Source: Dactylorhiza incarnata (lineage: Eukaryota > Streptophyta > Magnoliopsida > Asparagales > Orchidaceae). Taken from it: 64,000 nucleotides of DNA. Positions 39,587-62,667 of the stretch are shown in pieces (position 1 is the first letter of the stretch; the number at the start of each line of letters is the position of its first letter). The notes beneath the pieces are model-generated. The model saw only the letters and a program-made list of their open reading frames with translations. It was not told where the DNA came from and ran no database searches. The stretch is from assembly GCA_033032865.1 (NCBI GenBank), contig JAWHQI010000266.1, forward strand, positions 2,393,501 through 2,457,500, written 5' to 3'. Both the position numbers and the translations under genes were made by a program.

Positions 39587-42142
39587 ATGGCCAACAGTGG
39601 AATGAAGAAAGTGTTGGGGTCAATGAAGTTGCCCATATGCTCCAAAGAAAACTTTGGTATATGGAAGCAAAGGGTAAGGCTATTCATGGAAGCCTCAGAC
39701 CCAAGGATCTTTTTGACTGTTAAAAATGGTCCTTATTCCTTTGAGAAAGTCTCCACTATTGACCCTACTAGAAAAGTACTTAAGGTATTTTCTGAGCTGA
39801 CCAATGATGAGATAGCACTATACACTATGGACAAGAGAGCCCAAAATATAATAGTAAATTCCATTGATGACACTACATTTCAGAACTTGGTACACTGCCA
39901 AACTGCCAAGGAAATGTGGGACACATTGGTTGTTTATATGGAGGGAACAGCTGAAGTAAGGGGTGATAGAAAGTCACTCCTCAATCAGGAGTATGAAGCC
40001 TTCAGACAACTGAGCCAGGAGAATATCTCCATGTGCTATGAAAGGTTCTTTAGGATTGTAAATGAACTAAGAACCTATGGAAGGGTGTTCATCACAGATT
40101 ATTAACTTAATGACAAGTTTCTTAGATCTCTAACTAGAGATTGGGACACTAAAATATGTGCAATCAGAGAAGGGGCAAGGCTTGGAGAAACCCCTACCCA
40201 TACACTGTTTGGGAAACTGCTCTCATATGAGATGCAGCACTCTGCAAGAAAGGAGGAGGACACTTCCTCCAGGGCTCACACAAGGGAGAGATCTGTTGCT
40301 CTCAAAGATGAAAGCTCTAAGAAGAACAAGGTTAGAGTGCAGTCACCTCCAAGAAAGGCTGCTGAATCTGAGAAATCTGAGAGCTGCAATTCTGACAGCT
40401 CCTCTTCAGATGAGGAGTTTGCTGCCTTCACAAGGCAGTTCAAGAAGATGATCAGGAGGAAACAATGGAAGAACAAACCTTCCTTCTCTTCTCATCCCAA
40501 GAAGGATCATTACAGATCCGAGAGGCAACATCCCAAAGGGGACAAGTATGACTCTAAATCTAGTAAACATGTTTCAACTAACATAATTTGCTATTGCTGC
40601 AGTAAGCCTGGACATGTCATTGCTGACTGTCCAGTCAAGAGAAAGGAAAGAGGTGACAAGAAACCTCATCACCAGAAGGAGAGGAAGGGAGAAAAATCCT
40701 TCCTAGCTAAGAAAGGCAAAAGCTGGAGTGAATCGGAATCTTCATCTTTAGATTCAGATGGTGAGGAGGAAGCCTACTTGGGGCTGTTTGCTGATCAGGA
40801 GGAAGAAGACTGTCCTGCTGCTAGGATAGGAATCAGGGACCCTCTATCACATTCTGATAGTGATGTAGAGGAGGATGAGGACACTCTAGAAGACCATGGG
40901 CTGATGGCTATAACTGAAAATGAGGACAACCACAGCAATTCAGAACATGAGCAGGTATTGATACACTGAATTTCTTCTTCTTCTGATTATGAAATAGGTC
41001 CAGAATCTGAATCTCCTCCATCTAAAGTTGGAAGTGAATCAGATTCTGAGGAGGATGTCAATCAATTGATTGATAGGTATGGTGCACTCCTGGAAGCTCT
41101 GAAAAAGAGCAAAAAGCTAGCCAAGAGGCAAGCCCAAGAAATTACTTCCCTAAAGCAATCAAAATCTGAGTGCATTGAGCATGCTACCCAGCTTGCTCTA
41201 ATGAGCAAGGAGATTGGCAAGCTAAAGGGAATGTCAATCATCCATGTGGACACTATAAGCCACAAGAACAAGATCATTAAGAATCTTGAAGAAAAGCTCC
41301 TCAAGGAGAGGATGCTGGTGGCTCAATTCTCCAAGCCCAAATCTTTGCTACCTATTATTGACACCTTCTCCTTTCAAACCAATAGGAGAGGATTAGGGTT
41401 CAATAAAATGGAAGTAGGAGAAGGGAGTGGAGTAAAGAGCAAGGAGAAGGCTAAGCCTCAACCCACCTTTCAAAAGGTAATACTTCCCTCCAACAGGTAT
41501 GACCATGAAAGCATTTATGGTCACTAGAAGAATGAGAGGTGCTATAGGAAGGAAAATGCTCCTTCATATAATGGAAGAAAGGGAATGGGATTGAGTGCCA
41601 TGAAGGCTCCCCATGAGGAAATTCAAATGGCCCAACATGGACCATTTGTTTTTGGTACTTCAGCCACATCATTCATGAATAAGAAGGCAAGCCCTTCTAA
41701 GGTTGAATCAGTCAAGAAAATGACTGCTGCCAAATCTGTAAACATGTCTGAGTGCTCAGTGTCAGATGCCATCACATCTTGTATGGCTGCCAAGCCATTG
41801 CAAGCTGATGCCATCAGGACAAAGAACATTAAGACAGCACACAGAATGACATTCAGTCAAATCATTGTTGAGAGGAACAGGAAGAATGCTGTTGTATCTA
41901 TTCCTGGACATAAGGACTGTGCTGCACAATCCTCAAGAAATGCTCAGAAGAGAAGATACAACATTCATGAGTGTTGGTGCTGTGGCAAAGTGGGACACTT
42001 TGCAATTGATTGTTGGCACAACCCCAATGTGCCAAAGGCAAAGATTGAACCTCAAGCCAAACCAGCCCTTTCTAGGAATATCCCCTATGGTGTTAACATG
42101 AACCTAGGACCCAAAGTCAGTTGGGATCCTAAGGTACATTAA
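39587..42142 (+). pseudogene. gag of element E
   Basis: A single frame of 852 codons from ATG 39587 to TAA 42140 is broken only by three stops (40103, 40967, 41525) and has no frameshift. Domains: UBN2-type gag (GIWKQRVRLFMEASDPRIF, NQEYEAFRQLSQENISMCYERF), basic and Ser-rich region, CCHC knuckle CYCCSKPGHVIADC (about 40590), acidic Ser/Glu/Asp-rich stretch, coiled coil (EALKKSKKLAKRQAQEITSL), and a second knuckle CWCCGKVGHFAIDC (about 41974). It ends LGPKVSWDPKVH. At this length it is a Sirevirus-type gag. The TAG at 41525 reads naturally as a changed CAG. Confidence 0.9.
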
Positions 42143-42156
42143 ATTTTGTGCTGCAG
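42143..42156 (+). promoter_or_regulatory. Acceptor-like site at the gag-pol junction of element E
   Basis: After the gag stop, ATTTTGTGCTGCAG directly precedes the first pol codon GTT. It matches the position and phase of TTTTGCAG in A and C. Confidence 0.4.
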
Positions 42157-45100
42157 GTTATTTCAAGTACCAGTCTCAACCAAATATGGTACTTGGACAG
42201 TGGGTGCTTAAGGCACATGACAGGAACTAAGGATCTTCTAAAGGATTAGCATCCAGTGAAGAATGGACCCAAAGTTATCTTTGGTGGATCTGAAAAAGGA
42301 GTCACCAATGGATATGGTATGATTTCAAATGGCATAGTCTCAATCACAAGGGTAGCTTATGTTGAAGGGTTGCCACACAACCTTGTAAGCATAAGCCAAC
42401 TATGTGACTTAGGCTATGTCATTGAATTCCACAATGACAAGTGCTTGATCAAAAAGTCTAATGACTTGGAGACCATTCTCTCAAGCACTAGGAGTGGAAA
42501 TGTTTATTGCTTAGACTTCATTTGCAATTATTCTATCTCTTCTGTGTGCCTTGTAGCTAATGAAAGTGAGTCACTTTGTGTCCAATGGCACAAGAGACTT
42601 GCCCACATTAACTATAAGACAATCTATAGATTATTTTATAAAAACCTTGTTAGAAATAGTCCTAAACTAAAATGTGTTAAAAGTGGTCCCTGTCATGCTT
42701 GCCAAATGGGTAAGCAAACTAGGACCACCTTTAAAAGTATTGGCTCCAAGGATACTGAAAGGTGTTTATACCTATTGCACATGGACTTGTTTGGTCCTTT
42801 GCCAATTCAGAGCCTAGGTGGGAAGTTGTATACCTTGGTAATTGTAGATGATCATTCAAAGTATACATGTGTATTCTTCCTTAAGAAGAAGTCAGATACC
42901 TTACATGTCTTTATAAATTATGTCAAGGCAATTCAGAATGATCTACTATGTACTGTGGTCAGGACAAGAACTGACCTTGGCACGGAATTTCAATCTGAAG
43001 CCATGACAAAATTTTGTCAAGAATTTGGTATCACCCAAGAGTTCTCCTACCCAAGGACTCCACAGCAAAATGGTGTGGCTGAGAGGAGGAATAGGACCTT
43101 GATAGAAGCTGGGAGAACATTGCTTAGTGACTCCTCACTCCCAGAATACTTCTGGGCTGAGGCAGTCAATACAGCCTGTTATGTTCTCAATAGAGCCTCC
43201 ATCAATAAGGTCCTTGGGAGAACCCCTTATGAGATTCTGAAAGGCAAACAACCTACAATTTCTTACTTTAGAATCTTTGGTTGCAAATGCTACATTCTAA
43301 ATAATGGAAAATCTTAATTAACAAAGTTTGCAGAAAAATGCAATGTGGGGGTTCTTGTTGGGTATAGCTCACATAGTAGAGCTTATAGAGTTTATAACAA
43401 GAAAACCCATGTTGTAGAAGAATCTATGCATGTTGTGTTTGATGAGACCAGCCTTCTCTACAAAGAATGGTCTAGTTCTTCTATTTTGACAGGAAATGAA
43501 GAAGGGATGCATGAGCTGACTGTCCAAGATAGGCCCAGCAGCAGCAAAACACAAACAGCTGCTGCAATTCCTGAAGAAGAAGAGGTACAAGAGGGTGAAG
43601 TCACAGCTGAACCAGTGGAACAACCACAGCCTCCAGAGGATCCTCTTCCAGCTGCTGCAAGGCACCTGAGAGATCATCCAAGAGATCTTATAATTAGAGA
43701 TCATACCCAAGGCATATTGACAAGAAGTAGAGCTCATAATGAAGCACTATTCTTGAGCTTCCTTTCTCAAATGGAGCCTAAGAAGTTTGAAGAGGCCAAT
43801 CAAGACATCTTCTGGATTGAAGCCATGCAAGAAGAGCTCCTACAATTCAAGAGATGCAAAGTATGGAAGCTGGTGCCAAGACATCAGGGACACAATGTGA
43901 TTGGCACCAAATGGGTATACAGGAACAAGCTTGATGAGAATGGTACAATCATCAAGAACAAGGCCAGATTAGTAGCCAAAGGATACATGCAAGAGGAAGG
44001 TATAGACTTTGATCAAACCTTTGCACCAGTTGCAAGGTTGGAAGCAATTAGGCTATTCCTTGCCTATGCTGCCCACAAGAGGTTCAAAGTCTACCAGATG
44101 GATGTCAAATCAGCCTTCCTCAATGGAGACTTGAAGGAAGAGGTATATGTTGAACAGCCTTCAGGTTTTGTGCATCCAACTCTAACTTCTCATGTTTACC
44201 TTCTTAGGAAAGCATTATATGGTCTCAAGCAAGCTCCAAGAGCTTGGTATGAGACTTTGTCCAACTTTCTCCTCAAGAACAAGTTCATGAGGGGAAAGAT
44301 TGATAACACATTGTTTCTTAGGGAAACAAGGGGCAAGTGTCTCTTAGTCCAAATTTATGTTGATGACATAATATTTGGGTCTACTGATGACAACCTCTGC
44401 AAGAGATTTGCCAATCTAATGTAGGGGGAGTTTGAAATGAGCAGTGTGGGTGAGCTCAAATATTTCCTTGGGCTCCAAGTGAAACAGTCTGATGATGGAA
44501 TTTTCATCTCCCAGACCAAGTACACTAAGGAGCTCATCAAGAAATTTGGGATGGAATCAGCCTCCACCATGAGAACACCCATGGGGTCTAATGTATCATT
44601 AGACAAGGATGAAAAAGGAAAGGCCTTTGATGAGTCCATGTACAGATGCATCATTGGATCCCTATTATACTTGACTGCTAGTAGGCCAGACATTATGTAT
44701 TCTACATGTGTTTGTGCTAGGTATCAAGCATGTCCTAAGGAATCTCACTACACCTCTGTGAAGAGGATTTTGAGATACCTTAAGGGAAGCTTGCATCTTG
44801 GCCTTTGGTACCCTAAGAACAATTACTTTGAACTAATAGGCTTTTCAGATGCAGATTTTGCAGGTTGCAAAGAAGACAGGAAGAGTACAAGTGGTACTTG
44901 TCAATTCCTAGGGAGAAGATTGATATCTTGGAGCAGCAAGAAATAAACCAGTGTTGCAATATCCACAACTGAGTTTGAATACATTGTTGCAGGTAGCTGT
45001 TGTGCACAACTCCTTTGGACACAACATCAATTGGAGGATTACAACCTCAAGGTAAGGGAATCTCCTTTGTATTGTGATTCATCCAGTGCAATATTTATTG

Positions 45101-45850: not shown

Positions 45851-48452
45851 ATGGCGCCAAAAAGTTCAAAAGATCTCCTGGAGGGCTATGAACTCGTCAG
45901 AGATGGATTCTCTCATGCCTCAGAAGAAATAAGACATGTGATCCATCTAATGGAAGCTTAAGGTTTGGAGCATATGCTGTCTGAACCTTGCTGCATTCTC
46001 AGAACTGAAGTTCTGGAATGGTTCAACCATGTCAAATTATCTCCCTCCAAAACCATCCTGAAGTCCAAGATAGGAAATGAGAAGATAAAGATTACAGCTA
46101 AAAGGTTGGAGAAGGGACTGAAATTAACTCCCTGCAGTAAAACTGAAGAGGAGGAGATATCTGAAAAGGATAAGCAGACTGCCCTAAAGTGGACAGGATA
46201 CAATGATACTAAAACCAGTTGTCTAAGGAGGAAGTTCTTCAATCAACAGGGGAAGCTGTTGTTTGATATAGTGGGCAAAGCTATCCTATGCAAGCCAGGT
46301 TCACATGATACTGTCTCACAGTTCATGTTTGAACTAATGACTAGGATAATTCTGTCCAAGAAAACCTCATGGGGAGAAGTTATTTTTCAAAGGATAAAGG
46401 AATCTCTATAAGCCCCCAATATGGGAAGAATACTATCTCTGTACCTACAGAATAGTCATTCAGAGACCTTTGCACACTCCAAGGGGTCAAATCTCCATTA
46501 TCTCAAAAGAATGGACATTAAGACTCTGGCTAGATTCTCCAGAGTGCTCCCTATGAGCCAGCCATCTGTGGCAAAGGAAAAGAAGAAAGAGTCATCCCAA
46601 TAGAAATCAGATTCATCCTCAAAGTCAGATGGGTCTGACAATGAGGATATTCATGGGTCTGACCTTAGATCTGGCAGCAACCCAATGAACCTAGATAATG
46701 AAGATGTCCCCAGGACAAGAAGAGATGAGGAGCCCCAAGGAATAGTTGAGCCCAATCCTGAGCCATCTCAGATGAATGCTGATCCAGCTGTTCCTCAAGC
46801 TGAAGATGAATTTCCCAACTCACCTATCCATGGTAAATTAGGATTTCAGTTAGGCCTCTCTTCTCTATCAATAATATAGTCTAGGTGTCTAATTCATCAA
46901 TCATTTTTCAGGTAACCTTAGACAAAATTCTCCTCCTATGGATGCCCCAAGTGAGGGGGAGCATAGCCCAGCCTATGAAGAAGGAGGTGGGTTTGCTAGT
47001 GGGGGAGATCATCAATAGGAATCAACCCCTCCAAATCTACAAGGTACACTTAATGCCCCATCTGAGGGGGAGCAGATCCCTGATAATGGAAGGGCTAATG
47101 CTCAAAGTGGAGCTGAAAAGCTGGTTGAAAAGGATCTGACCCAGGCAAAACCAGCTGCTGTTCTGGACACATCTGACCTGTTAAACTCAATACAAACCAT
47201 GATTGAGGGTCAGATGTTGTCTATGAAAGAGATTGTTGCTGAAAAGGTCCATGATGTCTCTGCTCAGATAAGGGATGAATTGTATGCAACAAGAGCTGCA
47301 TTGACTCAGGAGATCCAGGCCAGTGAGCAAAGAATGGAGTCAAGAGTGGTTGTAGTAAGAACTGAGCTGAATGCCCAGGTTAATGATGTCAAAATTGCAT
47401 CAGATCATATCCTTCTGCAGATGACAAGATGGTTTGAAATGGCCAAAAATACTGTTGCTGCCCAGCACACAGTTCTGAAGAATATTGCAGACCATCAAGG
47501 GGATTCCACAAAGGACATCACATATATACAGAATCAGGTCTACAAAAATGAAAATGTCTGGGAAAAAGCTGTTGCCAGAATGGCACAAGTGGTCAACACA
47601 TCAAGCAGCCAAGTCGAGTCCCACATTGACAAGGCAAAGGAATACATTTTAGATGACGTGGACATCACCTTTCAAACTCTCTCTCAATCCATATTGAATC
47701 AACATTCTGAAATAGAGAAGAAGATAGTGGAAAATAGCAAAGAAGGGGAGGAGAAAATTCTCAATCTACATGCTAAGCTGAAAGGAGCTCACATATAGCT
47801 GTATAACAACATGGATTCCTCCCATAAACTGATACTCTCCAATCAAGAAGAAGCCAACAAGCAAGTGGTGGAAGTGGTCAACAATGCTTCCAGTGCTATT
47901 CAAGAAAATATCTTTACCATGGTCAGAAAGGTCACTGATAATCAATGGGACTCAACCTTAAAAGTGCTGCAAGGAAGAAGAATTGATTTGAATCTTCCAG
48001 TCTTGAACCCTAACAGAGATGAAGACTTTGACTTCCAAAGTCAATCAAATCTGATTGCTGATAAGAGAGCAGCAAAGAGGCGGAGGGTAGAGGGTATTCA
48101 AACCGCTGAAGAATACATGCCACAGAAAAGAATGGAAAGATTAGAGGATCCACTCCATGAAGATGACAATCTGGAGTTGGACACAATTGTTGTCAATAAC
48201 TGGGTGAGCCATGGCAATCCAATGAAGGACTTTGACCATGTCTATTCAGCTGCTGAGTGGATCAAACACCTTGAAAGGGAATCTTTAAGGGAAAGGATTC
48301 TCAAAGAAAACATGGTAAGAAGGGAAACTCCTTTAAGGATTCCCACAAGATATCTTCCCAAGCCACTTCTGTACTTCAAAGTAAAGGAGAAGATCAAGGC
48401 TGCTGCTGAAGCTAGGAAAAGAAAGTCTACAGATGGAGAAAGCTCTTCCTAG
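45851..48452 (+). pseudogene. Extra (env-like) gene of element E, spliced
   Basis: The frame starts MAPKSSKDLLEGYELV at 45851. With the intron 46833-46911 removed, it runs to TAG 48450, interrupted by single stops at 45959, 46409, 46601, 47018 and 47796. Exon 1: an alpha/beta-looking domain (VLEWFNHVKLSPSKTILKS, KIKITAKRLEKGLKL, KLLFDIVGKAILCKPGS, APNMGRILSLYL, YLKRMDIKTLARF) and an acidic Pro-rich linker. Exon 2: PSEGE repeats, a long coiled coil (47200-47900) and a basic segment DKRAAKRRR, a possible nuclear signal. There are no membrane helices, so this is not a typical envelope. The domain resembles the antisense gene of F. Confidence 0.8.
46833..46911 (+). other. Intron in the extra gene of element E (79 nt)
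   Basis: Exon 1 ends CCTATCCATG. The intron starts GTAAATTAGG and ends TCATTTTTCAG, with a branch-like CTAAT about 23 bases before the end. The exons join as CAT-GGT-AAC. Without splicing the upstream frame stops at 46877. With splicing it continues in the frame used by all downstream coding sequence. Length and base composition suit a plant intron. Confidence 0.75.
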
Positions 48453-50843: not shown

Positions 50844-51586
50844 TGTAATGTCCCGATTCGTGCTAGGCCCCTCGAACGTATGTTTGGTAAGTTGACGCTG
50901 GCTCGTGGTGCACTTGATCGAGGAAAAATGTCAGCGCGAAAAAGGTTTGACACGATGATTCATCGAGTGGACTCAACAATTCGTCGAGTGGACTCGACGA
51001 TTTGTCGAGAGGACTCGACGATTCATCGATAGGAATCGACAATTCATCAAGAGGACTCGACGTTTCGTCGAGAGGACTCGGCGATTCATTGAGTGGGACT
51101 CGACAAATTTGTTGAGTAGGGACTCGATGACCCATTGAGTGGGACTCGACGATTCCTCAAGTGGGAATCGACGATTCATCAAGAGGTCTCGACGATTCAT
51201 CGAGAGGTCTTGATGATTCATCGAGAGGTCTTGACGATTCGTTGAGACCACTCGACGAGTTCGCCGAGTATCGATCCCGTACCATTTTATTTTGACTGCA
51301 TCATTGTGTCCGGATGCGCGCCGTCCAGAAAAGGCTTATTTGGGTTATAATAGTCTATTTTATGTCTTGTAATCAAGGTGGTCCTATAGGATAGCGACAC
51401 ATGGCGGTGTTGTGAAATCCAAAGTATGAGAAGTATTTTTCCCATTAATTCTAGTCAAATCAGCCTCTATTTTCTCTCTCCTCCCTTAACCTCGAACTTC
51501 TTTCCCTCATTCCAAGAGCTGATCACTTTTCCTTCCTCTTCCCCACACCTCAAGCACTGAGACCAGCCATTTTCCTGAAGGAAATT
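50844..51586 (+). repeat. Gypsy-like LTR G, first part
   Basis: The segment begins TGTAATGTCCCG directly in D's RNase H, an LTR-like start common in Ty3/gypsy chromoviruses (Tekay/Del type, from memory). It carries a tandem array at 50955-51272. After F (51587-62662) and its AAATT duplication the sequence resumes at 62668. No coding sequence is seen. If it is one LTR it exceeds 2 kb and runs past the window. Confidence 0.5.
50955..51272 (+). repeat. Tandem array of about 20-bp units in G
   Basis: About 16 diverged copies of GACTCGACGATTCATCGAGAG occur, with variants GTGG for AGG and AATC for ACTC. Each contains TCGA-N7-TCGA dyads. The Ser-rich reading frames across it are products of the repeat. 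Confidence 0.85.
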
Positions 51587-52855
51587 TGTTGGAGCATGCG
51601 TTTCACACTCCTCCGGTTTGATAATAACAAAGTCCCGTTTGTATTTGATTCTATTTTTATTAATGGTGTGCAGGTAACATGTATGAGATGTTCACATTTC
51701 TGCTGGAGCTAAATTTGAATGTGGGAAAATTGCACTGTCGGAAAATTCCGACAGCCGCTGTCGCCCAGGCGACAGCAGAGAAGTTACAACTACTTCCCTC
51801 CACGGCAGCTCGACGAAAGTCAGTTTTGAGCTGTCGGAATTCCGACAGCGATGTCGCCCAGGAGACAGCTCGGAGGTTACAACAACTGCCCACGACACCA
51901 CCCACGATCGGCAATTTTGCACTGTCGGAAATCCGACATCGATGTCGCCCAGGCGACAGCTCGACGGTTACAGCAACTGCCCGCACGACGCCACTCCAGC
52001 GGCAGTTTAACGCTGTCGGAAAATTCCGACAGTCACTGTCGCCCAGGCGACAGCGATTTTCTATAAATTGCCTCCTTGTGTTCGTGCAAAAGTAGCTTTT
52101 GAGAATTCCAAGTCCCTTCCTGAGTACATACGAACCAGAGAGCTCCAGAACCTCTTCAACTCCCATTTGTGCAAAGAAGGATTGAAGATTGAAGACGAGA
52201 TCGGGCGCGCTTCTACATCATCGATCATCTCAAGGCTTCAACAATCCGTTCAGAGATCTGATCTTCTAGGGAGTTGTTCTTTTCATATTGTATTTTCATT
52301 CACATTCTTTTCATTTTGTATTGGTAGAGAAATCGTCGTCTTGCGTGCGGCGTCTAAGTCCTTACGCGGCTTAGGGGAAAATTGCTTCCTTGTGCGGAGC
52401 GTCCAAGTCCTTGCGTGGCTTGGTGGGAAATCGTGGACTTGTGTGCTACGTATGGATCTTGGGAAGATCTAGAGGATAGGCTTGGGCTTGGTCTTGGGAA
52501 AGACAAGCGATAGCCTTCCGATCCTTGGGAGAAGGATTGGTAAACCAAAATTGTAGAATTTTTTGTTAACATAATTGTGCCTTGATCTTAAGCATTGTTA
52601 AGATCATTTTTATTGTACTCAAATTTCATGATTAATATAATTATGTCTTTTTCTTTAATTACATATTTGGTGGCATAATCTTTATCTTAGAAATTTGTGT
52701 TTTGGTTTAATACTAAAGTTGCATTGGTTTGAAAGTATTTATAAGTAATTTTTTAGTAAAGTAAAATCTCTTTAAAAAAAAAATTACTAAGTAAAAATTA
52801 ATTTTTAGACACACCCTTATTCACCCCCCCTCTAAGGGCGTTATACGATCCAACA
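51587..52855 (+). repeat. 5' LTR of element F
   Basis: The LTR runs TGTTGGAGCATGCG to GATCCAACA, 1269 bases. U3 has four paired palindromes (51735-51775, 51831-51868, 51922-51958, 52013-52053). The last ends eight bases before TATAAA (52062-52067). CACCCCCCCTCTAAGG lies near the end (52822). The frames at 51660-52572 are LTR sequence; they recur in the 3' LTR and show no protein family. Confidence 0.93.
52062..52067 (+). promoter_or_regulatory. TATA box of the F LTR promoter
   Basis: TATAAA follows the palindrome CTGTCGCCCAGGCGACAG (52036-52053) after eight bases. The same palindrome-TATA spacing is found upstream of the antisense gene at 59976-59983. Confidence 0.65.
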
Positions 52856-52873
52856 AGTGGTATCAGAGGCAGG
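52856..52873 (+). promoter_or_regulatory. Primer binding site of element F
   Basis: AGTGGTATCAGAGGCAGG follows the LTR, a good match to the initiator tRNA-Met complement. Confidence 0.85.
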
Positions 52874-52904
52874 TTACTCCAAAACGGTTTTACCACCGGG
52901 AGTA

Positions 52905-54836
52905 ATGGCGCACAACGATCACGCGTTCGTTGAGGGGCAAGGAATTAGTAGGCCACCACTTTTTACGGGCACAAACTATAATTATTGGAAAACACGTATG
53001 CGTTATTTTCTAATTGCGCTAGATATAGAAGTCTGGAATATGGTAGAATCAAGTTACACTTCTCCAACATTTGTTGTAGGAGATGTAACCATGGATAAGC
53101 CCAAAGACAAGTGGGATGACAACGATAAATTAAAATGTAAGAACAATGCAAAAGCCATGAATGCTTTATTTTGCGCACTAGATCGCACTGAATTTAATAG
53201 AGTTTGTGCTTGTAATACTGCATTTGAAATTTGGAATTTATTAGAAATCACTCATGAAGGTACTTCGCAGGTAAAGGATTCAAAGCTATTTCAACTGGAA
53301 TCTGAATTTGAAAGGTTCAAAATGGAGGTAGATGAAGAGATTGATACGATGTACACACGATTTACAAAAATCGTGAACGACTCAAAGGTGCTAGGAAAGG
53401 TGTTCTCAAATGGAGATTTGGTAAGGAAAATCTTAAGATCACTTCCCCCGAAGATCAATCCTAAATTGACTGCAATTTCCGAGTCACATGATCTTAAGAC
53501 CTTACAATTGGAGAGCCTCACTGGGAACTTGAAAACTCATGAAGTTGAATTGAAAATTCAACAACAAGAGTATATGGAGCCAAGGAAGAAGGGATTGGCT
53601 CTAAGATCAAAGAAGGAAGAAACTAGTGATTCTGAGGAGGATGAAGAAGATGAGGAAAGTTTATTTGTTAAAAAATTTAGAAAATTTATGAAAAATCCGG
53701 AGAGAAGGAATTCGTTTAAGAAGTATTCTAAGAAGGAGACCTTTAGGAAGAAAAAAGGAAAGGAAGGCGATGAGGAGGAAGAGAGACCGCCACCAAAGTG
53801 CTATCACTGCAAGAAGTTAGGACACATTCGAAGCAAGTGTCCAAAGTACTTGAAAGAACTTAAAGAAAAGAAGCACAAAGGGTCGAAGAAGGTGTTGAAG
53901 GCGGAAACCTGGGATGATACTACTTCTGAGGATGCGAGCAGTTCCGACTCAAGTAAAGAAGAGGAGGCCAACATATGCTTAATGGGAAAGAGCGTCATAT
54001 CTGATGACGAATGCAGTGTCCAAAGCGACACTGAGGTAACTCCTCCAACCTATGATGAATTGTTTTCTGAATTTTTAAAGACTTGCAAATTTTTTGAAAA
54101 AAGCTTAAAAGACAATGATCTTCTTAAATCTGAAAATGACATTTTACTTAAAGAAAATAAAAAATTGTTAAGGGAAATTAAAACTATTGGAAAAAGAGAT
54201 ATCTCTTGCCAAGAGTGTGATCACTTTTTGGGAAGAATTAATGAACTTGAAGAATCTCTTTCCAAATCTCATTCTACAATAAAAATTCTTACTAACAAGA
54301 ATGAGATTTTAGAGAGAGATCTGAAATCTTCAATCTCCAAAGTCCATGAGGGAAAGAAATCTTTTGAACGTAGATGCGTAAATCTAGTATCCGAGAATAC
54401 ACAAATGAAAAACCAGATTCATGACTTAATACTAGCCATGAAAAAATTTGGAATGGGCCGAAGATCACTGGATATGATCTTAGGATACCAACGCCATGGA
54501 TCTGGAAGGTTTGGGCTCAGATACACATCTGGAAGCTGTCGCCCGGCGACAACCACTGTCGCCGGCGACAGTGAAAAGTCCAGAAAATTCACTTTTAAAA
54601 ATTCTAAAATTAATGAATTGTTAAATACTGCATCCTCATCCAGTAAAAGTCCAGAAAAGTAATACTCCTCTAAATACATTACATGCGCCAAATGCAATAG
54701 ATTTGGTCACACTACGGACTCTTGCTGGAAAGAAGGAAAAAGTAAAATCAAACAAATCTGGGTGCCTAAGGCTTCTACCTATACTATGGGTGGAACCACT
54801 TGGGTAACCAGATCTTTACTCACCTCTTCTTTCTAG
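52905..54836 (+). pseudogene. gag of element F
   Basis: I chose ATG 52905 (MAHNDHAFVEGQG); the frame is open upstream only through the primer site. It is open to TAA at 54660 (585 codons), and the same frame continues to TAG at 54834. Domains: UBN2-type gag (FTGTNYNYWKTRMRYFL, LFQLESEFERFKMEVDEEIDTMYTRF), acidic stretch, CCHC knuckle CYHCKKLGHIRSKC (about 53800), coiled coil (54060-54430), palindrome-coded segment (54535-54573), and, after the TAA, a second knuckle CAKCNRFGHTTDSC and IWVPKAS. Since relatives keep the second knuckle in gag, the TAA is probably a nonsense change. A regulated stop is also possible. Confidence 0.88.
54535..54573 (+). repeat. F-family palindromes inside gag
   Basis: CTGTCGCCCGGCGACA and CACTGTCGCCGGCGACAGTG lie side by side in the codons for SCRPATTTVAGDSEK. 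They match the CTGTCGCC/GGCGACAG half of the LTR unit. Confidence 0.85.
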
Positions 54837-57800
54837 GTATGTTGGCAGGCTAAGGACAAAGAAGACGTGTGGTACTTGGACTCGGGTTGTTCAAAGCACA
54901 TGACGGGCAATAAAGAAAAGTTCCTTAGCCTAGAGATGAAGAAAGGAGGAGTTGTTACATTCGGAGACAATGGAAAAGGAAAAATCATCGGCATCGGAGT
55001 TGCGAGTAACGAAAATTTTTCAATTTCAAATGTTTTATTTGTAGAAGGATTAAAGCATAATTTGATTTCTATTAGTCAATTATGTGATAAGGGTTTAAAT
55101 GTTTTATTTGAATCTTCTACAAATTTATGCAAAATTATTAATTCCAAAACAAATGAAATTATTTTTACCGCACCTAGATGTCATAATGTATATATGATTA
55201 AATTTCTTGATTTTTCAAATTCTACCTTAAAATGTTTTTTATCAAAAAATGATGAATTCGATTTATGGCATAGGCGACTTGGACATGCTAGTGCCAAGTT
55301 AATTTCAAAACTTTCAAAAGATAAATTAATTAAAGGTTTACCTTTGCTAAATGGAAATTTATCTTCTTCACTATGTGTGCCTTGCCAAAAAGGAAAATTT
55401 TCAAAATCATCTTTCAAAAGTAAAAACATTATTTCTACCACTAGGCCACTTCAATTAATACATATGGACTTATTTGGGCCAATTGGAATTTCTAGCTTAG
55501 GAGGTAGAAAATACACATTTGTTTTGATTGATCATTATTCTCGTTTTTGTTGGACTTTATTTCTAACCTCCAAATCCGAAGCATTTTCAGAATTTTCAAA
55601 ATTATGTTTGCGTATTCAAAATGAATTTGAGTTAAAAATTAAACGCATACGATCGAATCATGGAGGAGAATTTGAAAATGAAAAGTTCATTTCTTTTTGT
55701 ACGGAGTTAGGAATTAAACATGAATTTTCCGCTCCACGCACACTACAGCAAAATGGTGTAGTGGAGAGGAAAAATAGAACTCTTCAAGAGTTAGCTCGTA
55801 CAATGTTATCTGAATTCAAATTACCAAAATCTTTTTGGGCTGAAGCGGTTAGCACGGCATGTTATGTAATAAATAGAGTAATGCTTCGCCCTATTTTAAA
55901 ATTAACTCCTTATGAATTAATTTTTAATAAACAACCAAATGTTTCTTATTTCAAAGTTTTTGGTTGTAAATGTTTTATTTTGAATTCTAAAGATTCCTTA
56001 GGAAAATTTGATGAAAAATGTGATGAAGGTATTTTTATTGGCTATTCTTCAACTAGTAAAGCTTATCAGATTTTTAATAAAAGAACAAAAATAGTTGAAG
56101 AATCCATTCATGTTAGGTTTGATGAGTTTGCTTCATGTGTAGAAAAGAAAATAACAGGAAAAGAAGATGATCCCTTTCCTTCGGTGGAGAATGATGATGA
56201 AGAACTTAGAGAAAATGAAGAAGAAAAAGGAGAAGAAAGAGAAGGAGAAAGAGAAGAAGAAAGAGAAGAAGAAAGAGAAGAATATGTGCCTCCAAGTGAA
56301 TTGAGATTTTCAAAGGATCATCCAAAGGAGCTTATCATTGGAGATCCGCAAAAAGGGGTTAGTACTCATTCATCGCTACATGTTTTATTTTCAAACCTTT
56401 GTTTTGTCTCTGAAATAGAACCAAAAGATGTTTCCACCGCTTTAAATGATGAATTTTGGTTTTTAGCTATGAATGAAGAACTGAATCAATTTGAACGTAA
56501 TAAGGTTTGGAATCTTGTAGAACGACCCAAAAATCGTCCTGTAGTTGGTGTTAAGTGGATTTTTAAAAATAAAATGGATAATGAATCTAGAATTATTAGA
56601 AATAAAGCCAGATTAGTTGCAAAAGGTTATGCACAAATTGAAGGGGTAGATTTTGATGAAACTTTTGCACCCGTAGCAAGATTAGAAGCGGTTAGGATAT
56701 TTCTTGCATTTGCTTGTTTTAAAAGATTTAAATTATATCAAATGGATGTCAAAACCGTATTTTTAAACGGGTATATAAAAGAAGAGGTTTATGTAGAACA
56801 ACCCCCTGGCTTTATAAATGAGAAATATCCAAATTATGTTTATAAATTAGATAAAGCGCTTTATGGATTAAAACAAGCGCCTCGTGCTTGGTATGATCGA
56901 TTAACTCAATATTTGTTAAAGCACGATTATAAAATAGGAAGTGCTGATTCTACACTCTTCATTAAGCAAATTGATCATGATTTAGTTATTTTACAAGTTT
57001 ATGTTGATGATATTATTTTTGGAGCCACTAATGAAGAGTTGTGTAATGAAGTAGTTCAAATTATGAAAAATGAATTTGAAATGAGTATGGTTGGAGAATT
57101 TTCATATTTTCTAGGTTTTCAAATTACACAAAAACATGATGGAATTTTTATATGTCAAACCAAATATATTCATGATATGTTAAAAAGATTTGGATTTGAA
57201 AACCTTAAGCATGCAAACACTCCTATGAGTACTTCACTAAAATTAGGAAAAGATGAAAGTGGTGTTTCAATTGAACAAACCCTTTATAGAAGTATGATAG
57301 GGTCTTTATTGTATTTAACCGCATCTAGACCTGATATTATGTTTGCCGTTTGTTTATGTGCTAGATTTCAAGCTAATCCTAAAATCACATTTAAAAGCGG
57401 TGAAACGTATCTTTAGATATCTCATAGGAACATCAAAATTAGGTTTATGGTATCCTCATAATGATTCTTTTATTTTACATGGTTTTTCGGATTCCGATTA
57501 CGCGGGATGTTCTTTAGATAGGAAAAGCACTAGTGGCACTTGTCACTTTATCGGCCCTTCACTTATTTCATGGTCGAGTAGGAAACAGAATTCTGTTGCC
57601 CTCTCTACTACCGAGGCCGAATATATTGCACTAGGTAGTTGTTGTGCCCAAGCTCTTTGGATGTCACAAACATTAGAAGATTTTGGCATGCAACAAAGTA
57701 GTGTAGAATTAAAGTGTGACAATAAAAGTGCTATAGACTTAACTAACAATCCCATATTACATTCTAGATCTAAGCATATAGATGTCCGACATCATTTTAT

Positions 57801-57945
57801 AAGTGATCATATTAAGAAAGGTAATATAAAAATCAACTTTATAGGCACGGAAAATCAACTAGCGGATATATTCACTAAGCCGTTACCGGATTCCCGTTTT
57901 TCTATGCTTAGGCTAGAATTGGGAATTCTAGACATTTCACGATGA
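54837..57945 (+). pseudogene. pol of element F (one frameshift)
   Basis: The frame continues from gag after TAG 54834 (TTCTTTCTAG then GTA). Protease [11 protein letters not shown] (about 54880); integrase [28 protein letters not shown], and [11 protein letters not shown], but RSNHGGEF stands where relatives have SDHGTEF, so the second catalytic Asp is Asn; reverse transcriptase [51 protein letters not shown] (about 57005); RNase H FSDSDYAGC, STTEAEY, CDNKSA, KHIDVRHHFI, ending TGA 57943. A 2-nt deletion near 57385 (NPK then SHL) shifts the frame. The acidic EEERE linker (56150-56290) separates integrase from reverse transcriptase. Confidence 0.93.
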
Positions 57946-58243
57946 ATATATCACTATTTAAAGCCTATAAAATTAAAAAAAAAAAATTTTATCACAAAAC
58001 CTAAACAATTTAAAAAGCAAAAGCCTAAATTTTAAAAATCAAACAATAGAATTTAAAAAAGACTTAAAAAAAAATTCAAACATCATTAATATTACATCAA
58101 TATTGTTCAAATAAAAACAGTAGAAAACAACATAAGGATCAAGTTCATTAAACAGCAATAGATCTGAAGAAGTTCACTGTCGCCCAGGCGACAGTGGATG
58201 TCGGAAATTTCCGACATCTCCCAGCAGCAGCAACCTGATGAAA
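57946..58243 (+). other. Spacer after pol of F with a palindrome pair
   Basis: A/T-rich sequence follows. Then come CACTGTCGCCCAGGCGACAGTG (58175-58196) and TGTCGGAAATTTCCGACA (58199-58216), 27 bases past the 3' end of the antisense gene. Confidence 0.8.
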
Positions 58244-59359
58244 CTACTCTGAATCTTCATAACCAGCCCCGCTGCTCTCTGGACAATCTTCTGGAGGTCC
58301 TCGTCTCACGGCTTTACCACGGCGAGTCCGCCTCACTGATTGGCGTGGCGGTTCTTCGTCCAGAACTTGCCATTCGGCCTCTTCCTCTGGCGTTGGCTTC
58401 AACTTCAGACCTTTGACGAGAAACTTCATAAACTTCTGCATTCAACTACGGTCCTTCTTCACTTCCTTCTTGTGATCCTCTAATGAATCACGTAAATTAT
58501 CAATGGACTCTCGTAGTGATCCTGCCCTAGGCAATGGCGGCTCTCGAATCTCAATTCCCGGATGAGCCTTTTTCTGCGTCTTCTTCACTTTCATCGAACC
58601 CGTATAATATATCTCCGGATAACAATCATCCAAATAAGAACTTTGCGCTATCCATCCGTACTTCTTATAGAGTACACGCTGAATTATCGCCCCCATTGGC
58701 AGCGTATGAACCTTCACCCATCTTGGATGCTTTAATCTATACGCATACCTAATCTGGGAGAGTATGAAGTCCGCCACATCAAAAAGCTCATCCTCCATAA
58801 TGTAGTATGTAATGAGGGTCAACTGAGCCGTAATACTTCTTGTATCTCCACTCTTCAACATGACTGAATTCCTTAAGATATCTTGAACTAAGAAAGCATC
58901 CGGATTGAGTGACGTAACTTCAGTGGTTAGAGTCTTCTTTTGATTCCCATGTAAACTCATGTTTACAAGAGTCCAATCTCTATCTTTTCTATAACTCTCC
59001 ACTATATCCGGCACATTTTCACTAACCACTAATCCGAATTCCTCTCTTAGATCAACATGTGTTATTTCCACATGTTGACCCTGAATTCTTGATCTTACTC
59101 CTCCATCCAACTCAGTGCAATTTGGATCTTCCAAATGATAATAGAACTCGCGAATCAAAAAGGAAGAGAACGGCTCTGGGGTGATTATTGAGAGAATACC
59201 TGCATTCGCAAACCGATCATAGATATGATCGTGCTTCGGCTAATCAAATTCCACATACTTCGCAACTCCAACAATAGCTTTCTCCACCCCAGGGAAAACT
59301 TGATATGAACTATGTACATCTTCCGAAGTACTCCTTCGAGCTTTGGAACTGGAAGCCAT
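58244..59359 (-). pseudogene. Antisense extra gene of element F
   Basis: Minus-strand ATG 59359 (MASSSKARRSTSEDVHSSYQVF) opens 371 codons to the stop at 58244, broken by two nonsense codons: one after EFD near 59242 (TAG), one TGA after KKDRS near 58440. Both can come from C-to-T change. Core: FLIREFYYHLED, GGVRSRIQGQHVEITHVDL, AFLVQDILRNSVMLKSGDT, LITYYIMEDELFDVADFILSQI, TLPMGAIIQRVLYKKYGW. These recall the putative plant transposon protein domain and align in order with exon 1 of E's extra gene. The C-terminus is Arg-rich (SVRRTRRGKAVRRG), which could be nuclear. It is opposite in direction to gag-pol and lies between pol and the 3' LTR. Confidence 0.75.
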
Positions 59360-59360
59360 T

Positions 59361-59879
59361 CTGCAAATAACATAAAAATTTTGATTAAACATGTGCTGTG
59401 CACTGGAACACTGTCGCCCAGGCGACAGTGACTGTCGGAAATTTTCGACAGCTCTCCAGTGAACTTCTCTCGAAATTTTTTACATTCACTTCCAGATCTA
59501 CTCAAAATCAAGGTTGTTTCAACATCAAGTTTAAAAAAAAATTATATGTTTTTCAAATCAAAATCTTCTCCATATCCTTACTATTCATCATCTTCAACCT
59601 TCATTCAAAAGACAAAACTTCCATTTTTAAAATTAGTCTATGAACAAAAGCAAACCTTCAACCACAAGAATCACAAAATCATAACATTTTTAACAAAGAT
59701 CCAACAAGATCCACTTGTTTTTAAACTAGATCTACACTTTTAAAAACAAAAAAAATTCAAAAACCTACACCATTCATCAAAAGTCAAAATGAAAACTACA
59801 TTTTCCTTCTTCTCTACTATCAAAATCACAAATCCCTAAAAAATTTTGAGTTAAAAACATAAAAATAAAAAATCCATAC
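59361..59879 (-). other. Candidate 5'-UTR intron of the antisense gene of F
   Basis: On the minus strand CTAAG is followed by GTATGGATTT at 59879, and TTATGTTATTTGCAG ends at 59361, one base before the ATG at 59359. The 519-base stretch is A/T-rich with no coding frame. It contains a palindrome pair (59409-59451). Donor, acceptor and placement just before the start codon suit a plant leader intron. Confidence 0.55.
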
Positions 59880-59975
59880 CTTAGATCTAGAGTTGTCGCC
59901 GACTTCCGACAGCCTTCTCTCGCTCTACAGTCCAGAAAAATGAAGCACAATAGGGTTTGACTCAGTCCAAAGCCC

Positions 59976-60031
59976 TATTTATATTTTTGACTGTCGCCCA
60001 GGCGACAGTGACTGTCGGAAATTTCCGACAG
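59976..60031 (-). promoter_or_regulatory. Promoter of the antisense gene of F: palindromes and TATA box
   Basis: Minus-strand TATAAATA lies at 59983-59976. Seven bases upstream is CTGTCGCCTGGGCGACAG (59991-60008, minus reading), then CTGTCGGAAATTTCCGACAG (60012-60031). The first exon would start about 30 bases after the TATA box and run to 59880. Confidence 0.65.
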
Positions 60032-61390
60032 CTCCCGAAGTGATATTTCTTCAATTATTGGCCCCTTTGATGATTTACAATAGTTATATGTCATTATTAA
60101 TGCTTCACCTCATGACTTGATGACAAACCATGTGTTTTTTATTTTAAAAAAAAAATGTCTCTTACATGATTATATGATTTCATTTCCAAGCTATCATCGT
60201 ATTGACACTCCTACTTAGTTGTTTAGACAATTGGAAATTGTTTTCGCATGCCTCTAAGTATGAGAAATTATTTATCTATCATAATGAACTATCACGTTCA
60301 CTTCTTATTGATCAATACGTATGTCTTTTTATTTAATATATACATGGATCATATTTGCTTTAACATAACAAAAAAGCACTTCTTAAATACAACTTTCAAC
60401 CTTGATTTGTTAGCACAACAAAATATACACCATCTTTTGCGATTCAAGTGAATTCGGAGATCCTTGGTCAATTAAAAAAAAATATCAATATATCAAAATT
60501 AAGATATCACAACATCTGTGATCAAAAAATTTATAATAAAGACAAGGATACTCCACCAAGCACTACTTACCCTCCTGATAAGTCTTAATGAGCATTGTGA
60601 GGTTAAGCACCTTGGAAAGAATTGTAAAGTGTCTTGTGCAAAAGAAAAATGGTTTTCTATTCCTCTTGTGCTATATCTTCAAAGTCAAAGTTGACTTTAA
60701 ATGCTTTTATTATGTTCTACATTTCAATGATCATGTAAATTAAATAACTTCATATGTTTGATCTAAGTATCACATGTACACATCATTATGTTATATAAAC
60801 ATTCATCTTATGAGAATTGGACCGAAAATATTCCATAATTCTATACACTATTGTGTCTTTCTATGATACTTTCAAATGACCTTACTCATGTTTAGGTTAT
60901 TTTCTTTCATTACTTCATATGTCTATACCGTCACTTCATGAGTTTATTCATACTATGGCATATTCCTATTATTTCATGGACTTCAATCATTTCCACACAA
61001 AAAATGCTTCCGTTTACTCTTCCTTTCTATATTCTATATCCTTTCCCTTAAGAACTACACTTTTATCTAATATTAACTTTTGCTAATACCAAAAGGGGGA
61101 GAATTTAAAGTATAAAAAGAAAAATCACAAATCTATTACACCTAAATAGATTACACCTAAATATTCCACCTACACAATACATCATATATTTAGGGGGAGC
61201 ATATATTTAGGGGGTGCATATCTTTAGGGGGAGCATTCTTTTAGGGGGAGCTTTCACCTAAAGTGAGATTATTTATTTTAAGAGAAATATATCATGTTAT
61301 TTTTGTGCACACACCAAATGTTAAAATCAACAATCTAAATAAGACATGATTTCTTTTTATACGGATTTGTTATTATCAAAAGGGGGAGAT
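60032..61390 (+). other. 3' noncoding region of element F with repeated polypurine tracts
   Basis: No gene is seen in 60032-61080; the sequence is A/T-rich. AAAAGGGGGAGAAT (61090) and TTAGGGGGAGC-type tracts (61190-61255, four copies, one with GTGC) precede the final AAAAGGGGGAGAT beside the LTR (61380-61390). Repeated tracts are a Sirevirus trait. Confidence 0.75.
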
Positions 61391-62662
61391 TGTTGGAGCA
61401 TGCGTTTCACACTCCTCCGGTTTGATAATAACAAAGTCCCGTTTGTATTTGATTCTATTTTTATTAATGGTGTGCAGGTAACAGGTATGAGATGTTCACA
61501 TTTCTGCTGGAGCTAAATTTGAATGTGGGAAAATTGCACTGTCGAAAAATTCCGACAGCCGCTGTCGCCCAGGCGACAGCAGAGAAGTTACAACTACTTC
61601 CCTCCACGGCAGCTCGACGAAAGTCAGTTTTGAGCTGTCGGAATTCCGACAGCGATGTCGCCCAGGCGACAGCTCGGAGATTACAACAACTGCCCACGAC
61701 ACCACCCACGATCGGCAGTTTTGCATTGTTGGAAATCCGACATCGATGTCGCCCAGGCGACAGCTCGACGGTTACAGCAACTGCCCGCACGAAGCCACTC
61801 CAGCGGCAGTTTAACGCTGTCGGAAAATTCCGACAGTCACTGTCGCCCAGGCGACAGCGATTTTCTATAAATTGCCTCCTTGTGTTCGTGCAAAAGTAGC
61901 TTTTGAGAATTCCAAGTCCCTTCCTGAGTACATACGAACTAGAGAGCTCCAGAACCTCTTCAACTCCCATTTGTGCAAAGAAGGATTGAAGATTGAAGAC
62001 GAGATCGGGCGCGCTTCTACATCATCGATCATCTCGAGGCTTCAACAATCCGTTCAGAGATCTGATCTTCTAGGGAGTTGTTCTTTTCATATTGTATTTT
62101 CATTCACATTCTTTTCATTTTGTATTGGTAGAGAAATCGTCGTCTTGCGTGCGGCGTCTAAGTCCTTGCACGGCTTAGGGGAAAATTGCTTCCTTGTGCG
62201 GAGCGTCCAACTCCTTGCGTGGCTTGGTGGGAAATCGTGGACTTGTGTGCTACGTCTAGATCTTGGGAAGATCTAGAGGATAGGCTTGGGCTTGGTCTTG
62301 GGAAAGACAAGCGATAGCCTTCCGATCCTTGGGAGAAGGATTGGTAAACCAAAATTGTAGAATTTTTTGTTAACATAATTGTGCCTTGATCTTAAGCATT
62401 GTTAAGATCATTTTTATTGTACTCAAATTTCATGATTAATATAATTATGTCTTTTTCTTTAATTACATATTTGGTGGCATAATCTTTATCTTAGAAATTT
62501 GTGTTTTGGTTTAATACTAAAGTTGCATTGGTTTGAAAGTATTTATAAGTAATTTTTTAGTAAAGTAAAATCTCTTTAAAAAAAAAATTTACTAAGTAAA
62601 AATTAATTTTTAGACACACCCTTATTCACCCCCCCCCTCTAAGGGCGTCATACGATCTAACA
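61391..62662 (+). repeat. 3' LTR of element F
   Basis: 1272 bases, the same features as the 5' LTR, with four palindrome pairs (61539-61857) and TATAAA near 61866. Some palindromes differ between the LTRs: GGCGACAG here against GGAGACAG at 51861, and TGTTGGAAATCC here against TGTCGGAAATCC. Confidence 0.93.
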
Positions 62663-62667
62663 AAATT

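Follow-up and report, generated by a model that had tools for sequence, protein, structure and literature searches.

The 64,000 nucleotides of Dactylorhiza incarnata DNA analyzed here (the window) contain a copia retrotransposon, element F, in which a linker of 3,445 bases separates the end of pol (57945) from the start of the 3' long terminal repeat (LTR; 61391), and this linker carries a gene-like unit on the strand opposite to gag and pol. By its position and orientation, the unit is an antisense additional open reading frame (ORF) between pol and the 3' LTR. Read leftward, it consists of a palindrome pair, a TATA box (TATAAATA), a leader, a candidate intron holding a second palindrome pair, an ATG (59357-59359), a frame of 371 codons and, behind the stop codon, a third palindrome pair (Table 1). 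Based on this anatomy and on a comparison of copies in the host genome, we consider it highly probable that the unit is an accessory protein gene lying in antisense under an internal promoter of the LTR type, in a Sirevirus-like copia family.

The promoter-like part of the unit resembles the LTR promoter of the same element. Over its 42 bases, the palindrome pair preceding the antisense TATA box matches the reverse complement of the LTR pair at 93%, and the distance between dyad and TATA box, as a preliminary description of this locus had noted, is 7 bases in the antisense unit (dyad 59991-60008) and 8 bases in the LTR (dyad ending at 52053). All three palindrome pairs that it had placed around the antisense gene are present, and TATAAATA occurs only once in the linker when both strands are counted. 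The 11 half-sites of the linker (CTGTCG or CGACAG) all lie at 58177-60031, on the antisense gene, and neither form occurs in the remaining 1.4 kb of linker up to the 3' LTR. We rejected chance as the source of the palindromes, since the expected number of matches per palindrome is 0.00 in 100 shuffles of the window. At 59400-59460, a longer inverted repeat surrounds the intronic pair, and the fold is a single closed structure.

Between the leader and the ATG lies the 519-nt intron candidate that the preliminary description had proposed, with GT-AG borders. Its donor (AAG/GTATGG) and acceptor (TTTGCAG/A) rank first among 122 GTs and first among 161 AGs, respectively, at 58100-60040, on a simple consensus score devised for this purpose. 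In the window copy, the longest open stretch of the coding region comprises 265 codons, whereas 300 dinucleotide shuffles of the linker reach at most 186 (mean 100).

Table 1. Features of element F and of its antisense unit (window coordinates; UTR, untranslated region)
Feature	Position	Strand	Remarks
Palindrome pair upstream of antisense TATA box	59990..60032	-	39/42 bases identical to the LTR pair, as reverse complement
Antisense TATA box TATAAATA	59976..59983	-	In 38/39 close and 4/5 divergent copies
Antisense 5' leader	59880..59975	-	96 bases (putative extent), ATG-free; 59881-59975 (95 bases) examined
Predicted 5' UTR intron	59361..59879	-	GT-AG, 519 nt, 30% GC; splice-site scores, conservation in copies
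Palindrome pair within intron	59409..59452	-	Shuffle test of window; kept in 39/39 copies
Antisense frame, 371 codons and terminal stop	58244..59359	-	Interrupted at codons 40 and 306 in the window copy; domain distantly similar to Transposase_32
Palindrome pair behind antisense stop codon	58175..58218	-	Shuffle test; kept in 36/39 copies
LTR promoter module	52012..52068	+	Palindrome pair 52012-52053, 8 bases, TATAAAT from 52062
Element F, copia with Sirevirus hallmarks	51587..62662	+	LTRs, target duplication, gag and pol domains
5' LTR	51587..52855	+	Comparison with 3' LTR
gag reading frame	52857..54662	+	Retrotran_gag_2 and zinc knuckle
pol, with frame change in this copy	54867..57945	+	Frames 54867-57416 and 57343-57945
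Repeated polypurine tracts before 3' LTR	61094..61390	+	AGGGGGAG at 61094, 61192, 61226, 61243, 61381
3' LTR	61391..62662	+	Comparison with 5' LTR

We searched the host assembly of 3.27 Gb for related copies and sampled the best 40 of 2863 candidates by similarity of the coding region (98-100% identity, the window included). Two linkers on different contigs (L016 and L020) are identical, reflecting either a recent duplication or an assembly duplicate, and were merged, leaving 39 distinct close sequences with the window among them. The full 371-codon frame is open in 19 of these 39, and the length given in the preliminary description was thus right for the family, whereas the copy in the window is interrupted at codons 40 and 306. 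The ATG is present in every close copy, TATAAATA in 38, the 7-base spacing in 37, the donor AAGGT in 37 and the acceptor TTTGCAG in 38. When up to two mismatches per dyad are allowed, the palindrome pair is kept in 36 of the 39 copies at the promoter, in all 39 in the intron and in 36 on the 3' side; two of the six misses (L035 and L016), one of them a 3' pair, are stretches outside the alignment coverage. In 18 of 20 copies examined, gag lies at the expected distance, indicating that the antisense gene regularly belongs to the element and did not enter the window copy as a nested insertion. The two LTRs of a copy were comparable in 16 of 20 and differ by 0.08-2.7%.

The close copies fall into two subgroups, within and between which the ratio of non-synonymous to synonymous polymorphism (pN/pS) is 0.41-0.55, a value that is not decisive, since the copies were chosen by coding similarity and their differences largely arose after insertion. 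Fixed differences between the subgroups occupy 26 of 514 intron sites and 0 of 1113 coding sites (linker stretch 57946-60290). This uniformity of the coding region was not used as evidence because of the same choice by coding similarity; recombination, selection and the choice itself are all possible causes.

Because of this bias, we turned to copies chosen by their intron. The intron of a divergent copy (L049) served as query, the best 40 of 1826 candidates were considered, and six coding regions were taken from the lower end of the list, leaving out L045, which had already been sampled, and two at 94%. The frame can be aligned in each of the six, with no gap in five and 21 gap positions in the remaining one; L070, L072, L073 and L074 have no internal stop, L071 and L075 have one each, and the splice acceptor of L073 is altered. 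Measured against the copies L011, L014 and L027, the ratio of non-synonymous to synonymous substitution rates (dN/dS) lies at 0.13-0.25 in the four deeper copies, at a dS of 0.10-0.19, and at 0.17-0.50 in the other two, which are shallower. Differences are significantly in excess at third codon positions in 10 of the 12 pairs tested (for example, 17, 10 and 36 at the three positions in L071/L011; p 9e-5). In a control over all six frames of four deep pairs, pN/pS is 0.14-0.22 in the antisense frame, 0.39-0.48 in the sense frame that has its third positions in common and 1.0-2.7 in the other four. Each of the five other frames contains 15-30 stops (four sequences). We conclude that the antisense frame of the family is under purifying selection. 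The absence of such selection across copies had been named beforehand as a refutation of the gene; dN/dS, third positions and the six-frame control all favor the gene.

The promoter was compared in five of the six divergent copies. All five retain the palindrome pair, with one change in the first dyad in two of them and a changed second dyad in one of those two, and TATAAATA is found in four, each with the 7-base spacing. Leader and donor are nearly unchanged in the five copies, whereas the approximately 25 bases directly upstream of the palindromes differ. These observations bear on the idea that the linker palindromes act as RNA structures, for packaging, dimerisation or export or as hairpin boundaries, the TATA box being incidental and the antisense promoter lying elsewhere. 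As RNA, the three linker pairs and the LTR pair do form stable hairpins in tandem (z -4.9 to -7.1), two of the three linker pairs have no TATA box beside them and a further dyad pair lies within gag (54537-54573). Perfect DNA palindromes, however, fold as RNA anyway, the single TATAAATA of the linker stands 7 bases from a pair, at a spacing kept in 37/39 close and 4/5 divergent copies, and published Sireviruses carry similar palindromes upstream of the LTR TATA box (PMC2829016). We therefore regard an RNA role of the palindromes as unlikely, though worth keeping in mind.

How the antisense gene might work can be outlined from the sequence. The palindrome-plus-TATA module of the LTR would drive the genomic RNA, and a similar module, oriented the same way as the antisense gene, lies ahead of it. 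Since the same palindrome pair stands before the TATA box at both places, we infer a single activating factor that would switch on LTR and antisense gene alike, and the gene is probably co-regulated with the element. Once transcribed, the antisense pre-mRNA would be spliced in its 5' UTR, whereupon the first ATG would start a protein of 371 residues. The intron would survive retrotransposition because the RNA that is reverse-transcribed is the opposite strand, on which there is no intron. The protein is most likely an accessory or regulatory factor at the service of the element, probably acting in the nucleus. A bolder version, in which the protein is the element's own transcription regulator and binds the pairs in the LTR, the promoter, the intron and behind the stop codon, thereby forming a feedback circuit with a role comparable to that of retroviral regulatory proteins, strikes us as doubtful. 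That only the antisense RNA matters, as a source of double-stranded RNA or by interference with the genomic RNA, and that the protein is incidental, is very improbable: roles of the antisense RNA have been considered for genes of this type (PMC7264820) and the transcript would overlap the genomic RNA, but selection is limited to one frame and the exact length of that frame is kept, neither of which an RNA role needs. Least credible of all is a decaying passenger, a captured gene or transposon fragment that is now useless, as might be suggested by the two stops in the window copy, the 20 of 39 close copies that are not intact and the great number of Transposase_32 matches in the host genome (at least 150, the best 150 of 8771 candidates), because dN/dS is 0.13-0.25 at dS 0.10-0.19, leader, TATA box and splice sites are conserved, and broken copies are expected among neutrally decaying insertions. 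Capture as the origin of the antisense gene is possible.

The protein piece encoded in the window matches the Transposase_32 profile (PF20167) over most of its length with an E of 7e-9 and 36.2 bits, and three intact copies score 28.2-33.5 bits; the protein thus appears to be a distant relative of Transposase_32, which we do not file as a member. The best 150 matches to this profile in the host genome (see above) all exceed the cut-off, and one strong Transposase_32 protein from this genome has no significant BLASTP similarity to the antisense protein. No match to PF04195 (Transposase_28 / TRP28) was found for the antisense frame at E up to 0.5. Protein database searches returned none at E up to 0.001 for the 265-residue piece (261 candidates) and none at E up to 1 for the 371-residue frame (1298 candidates). 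Among solved structures, the window piece had no match and an alignment of six copies had one at chance level (E 0.65), and structure prediction from the single sequence gave no usable model (mean predicted local distance difference test score, pLDDT, 36.8). Its C-terminal tail contains many basic residues, a feature that would fit a nuclear role.

Several results weigh against an accessory gene under an LTR-type promoter. The window copy is unable to make the full protein because of its stops at codons 40 and 306, ahead of the terminal stop at 372, and 20 of the 39 close copies are not intact. Most variable sites of the close copies are private, and the changes at these 137 sites look neutral, at 0.94 of the neutral expectation; 13 of them are nonsense changes, where 5.9 would be expected. 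The corresponding ratio for private changes in gag is 0.85 (181 sites, 19 sequences). For sites common to two or three close copies the ratio is 0.55 (35 sites), and for those common to four or more it is 0.69 (7 sites); these values are not decisive. The third-position excess is not significant in L071/L072 (p 0.86) and L070/L074 (p 0.12), and the deep comparisons represent about three independent lineages, since L071 and L072 are sisters. The Transposase_32 match stays below the curated Pfam cut-off (36.2 against 45 bits), and neither AATAAA nor ATTAAA was found between 58244 and 57501 on the antisense strand. No TATA box is found in the sequence beside the intronic pair or the 3' pair, so that only one of the three pairs looks promoter-like. 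In the close copies, moreover, the palindromes are no less variable than their surroundings, which speaks against strong constraint on single bases; a mutation rate raised by the CpG richness of the palindromes is a possible cause. An independent antisense gene with an LTR-like promoter module, as the preliminary description had it, is well supported for the family, whereas the copy in the window is broken and the module is confined to one pair; its observation is partly confirmed and its interpretation partly supported.

As judged from its sequence, element F is one of a large family of Sirevirus-like copia retrotransposons. It is flanked by a 5-base target duplication (AAATT at 51582-51586 and 62663-62667), and its LTRs (1269 and 1272 bases) show 17 differences over 1268 aligned positions, 12 of them transitions and 5 transversions, a divergence that at a presumed rate of 1.3e-8 per site and year corresponds to roughly half a million years. 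The domain order of pol (Pol_BBD, gag_pre-integrs, rve, RVT_2) is that of copia elements, and the domain search of pol gave no separate RNase H match. F itself looks defective, since pol shifts frame near 57343-57416 in the window copy. CGG-CCG palindromes are clustered in the LTR upstream of the TATA box, polypurine tracts are repeated before the 3' LTR, and a poly-C signal is present as poly-C runs near both LTR ends. All three features are described as hallmarks of Sireviruses (PMC2829016). The AGGGGGAG octamer has 14 further occurrences elsewhere in the window. Two further GCC-type palindromes, similar to those of the LTR, lie within the end of gag (54537-54573).

The elements within the window are of plant type, and Rfam and tRNA scans of the window gave no matches. 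Just upstream of F, at 50927-51279, lies an array of 21-base repeats (GGACTCGACGATTCATCGAGA-like). Behind a second copia element, whose gag and pol frames lie at 39587-44946, stand two sense ORFs (47199-48452), 199 and 213 residues long, which have no convincing Pfam match and are perhaps an ENV-like gene.

Parts of this arrangement are already published: antisense genes in plant LTR elements, one of them driven by a promoter of its own, and palindromes next to the ENV genes of Sireviruses. The palindromic repeats of Sireviruses, termed RM boxes, occur both in the LTR and next to ENV (Bousios et al. 2010, PMC2829016), 77 of 79 linker palindromes lying upstream of ENV, and the authors took the ENV palindromes as support for an internal promoter, none of which was conclusively identified (PMC2829016). 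In F as in Sireviruses, CGG-CCG palindromes precede the TATA box of the LTR by a short distance and recur in the linker next to an additional gene; unlike the Sirevirus ENV gene, the gene of F is antisense, with TATA box, leader and intron, and the word antisense is absent from the text of PMC2829016. In maize Grande, the antisense gene23 has an upstream promoter of its own, from which it is transcribed, and a nuclear product (reviewed by Vicient and Casacuberta 2020, PMC7264820), and the antisense gene of F likewise lies between pol and the 3' LTR. The novelty of the promoter module is thus smaller than first claimed, the ENV palindromes with the internal-promoter hypothesis (PMC2829016) and the Grande promoter (PMC7264820) having been published. 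Unlike Grande, F is a copia element, and its antisense promoter resembles the element's own LTR promoter. Grande, RIRE2 and Retand, the plant elements with antisense genes compared here, are gypsy elements. The antisense ORFs of Retand carry the TRP28 domain (PF04195), for which a regulatory role has been suggested (PMC11963269); the F protein, in contrast to these proteins of a gypsy lineage, has no PF04195 match. Sunflower Athila elements, also gypsy, have an additional sense ORF, ORF(+), with partial similarity to Transposase_32 (PF20167) (PMC11728184), and F resembles them in having an additional retrotransposon ORF similar to Transposase_32, with a match below the Pfam cut-off, but differs in that its gene is antisense and its element copia.

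Open-licence titles and abstract openings yielded no Sirevirus antisense gene and no LTR-type promoter before one, though the subscription literature may contain it, and within this open-licence search the combination seen in the F family (antisense gene, TATA box, leader, intron and LTR-like promoter) was not found in print. Why promoter-like palindromes should stand beside an extra Sirevirus gene was left open in 2010 (PMC2829016). The F family would offer a concrete case for the internal-promoter idea, with a TATA box, a leader, an intron and a selected protein, in antisense. If LTR and antisense gene are indeed on one switch, the family would be a model for how a retrotransposon times an accessory protein, an antisense RNA and its own transcription together.
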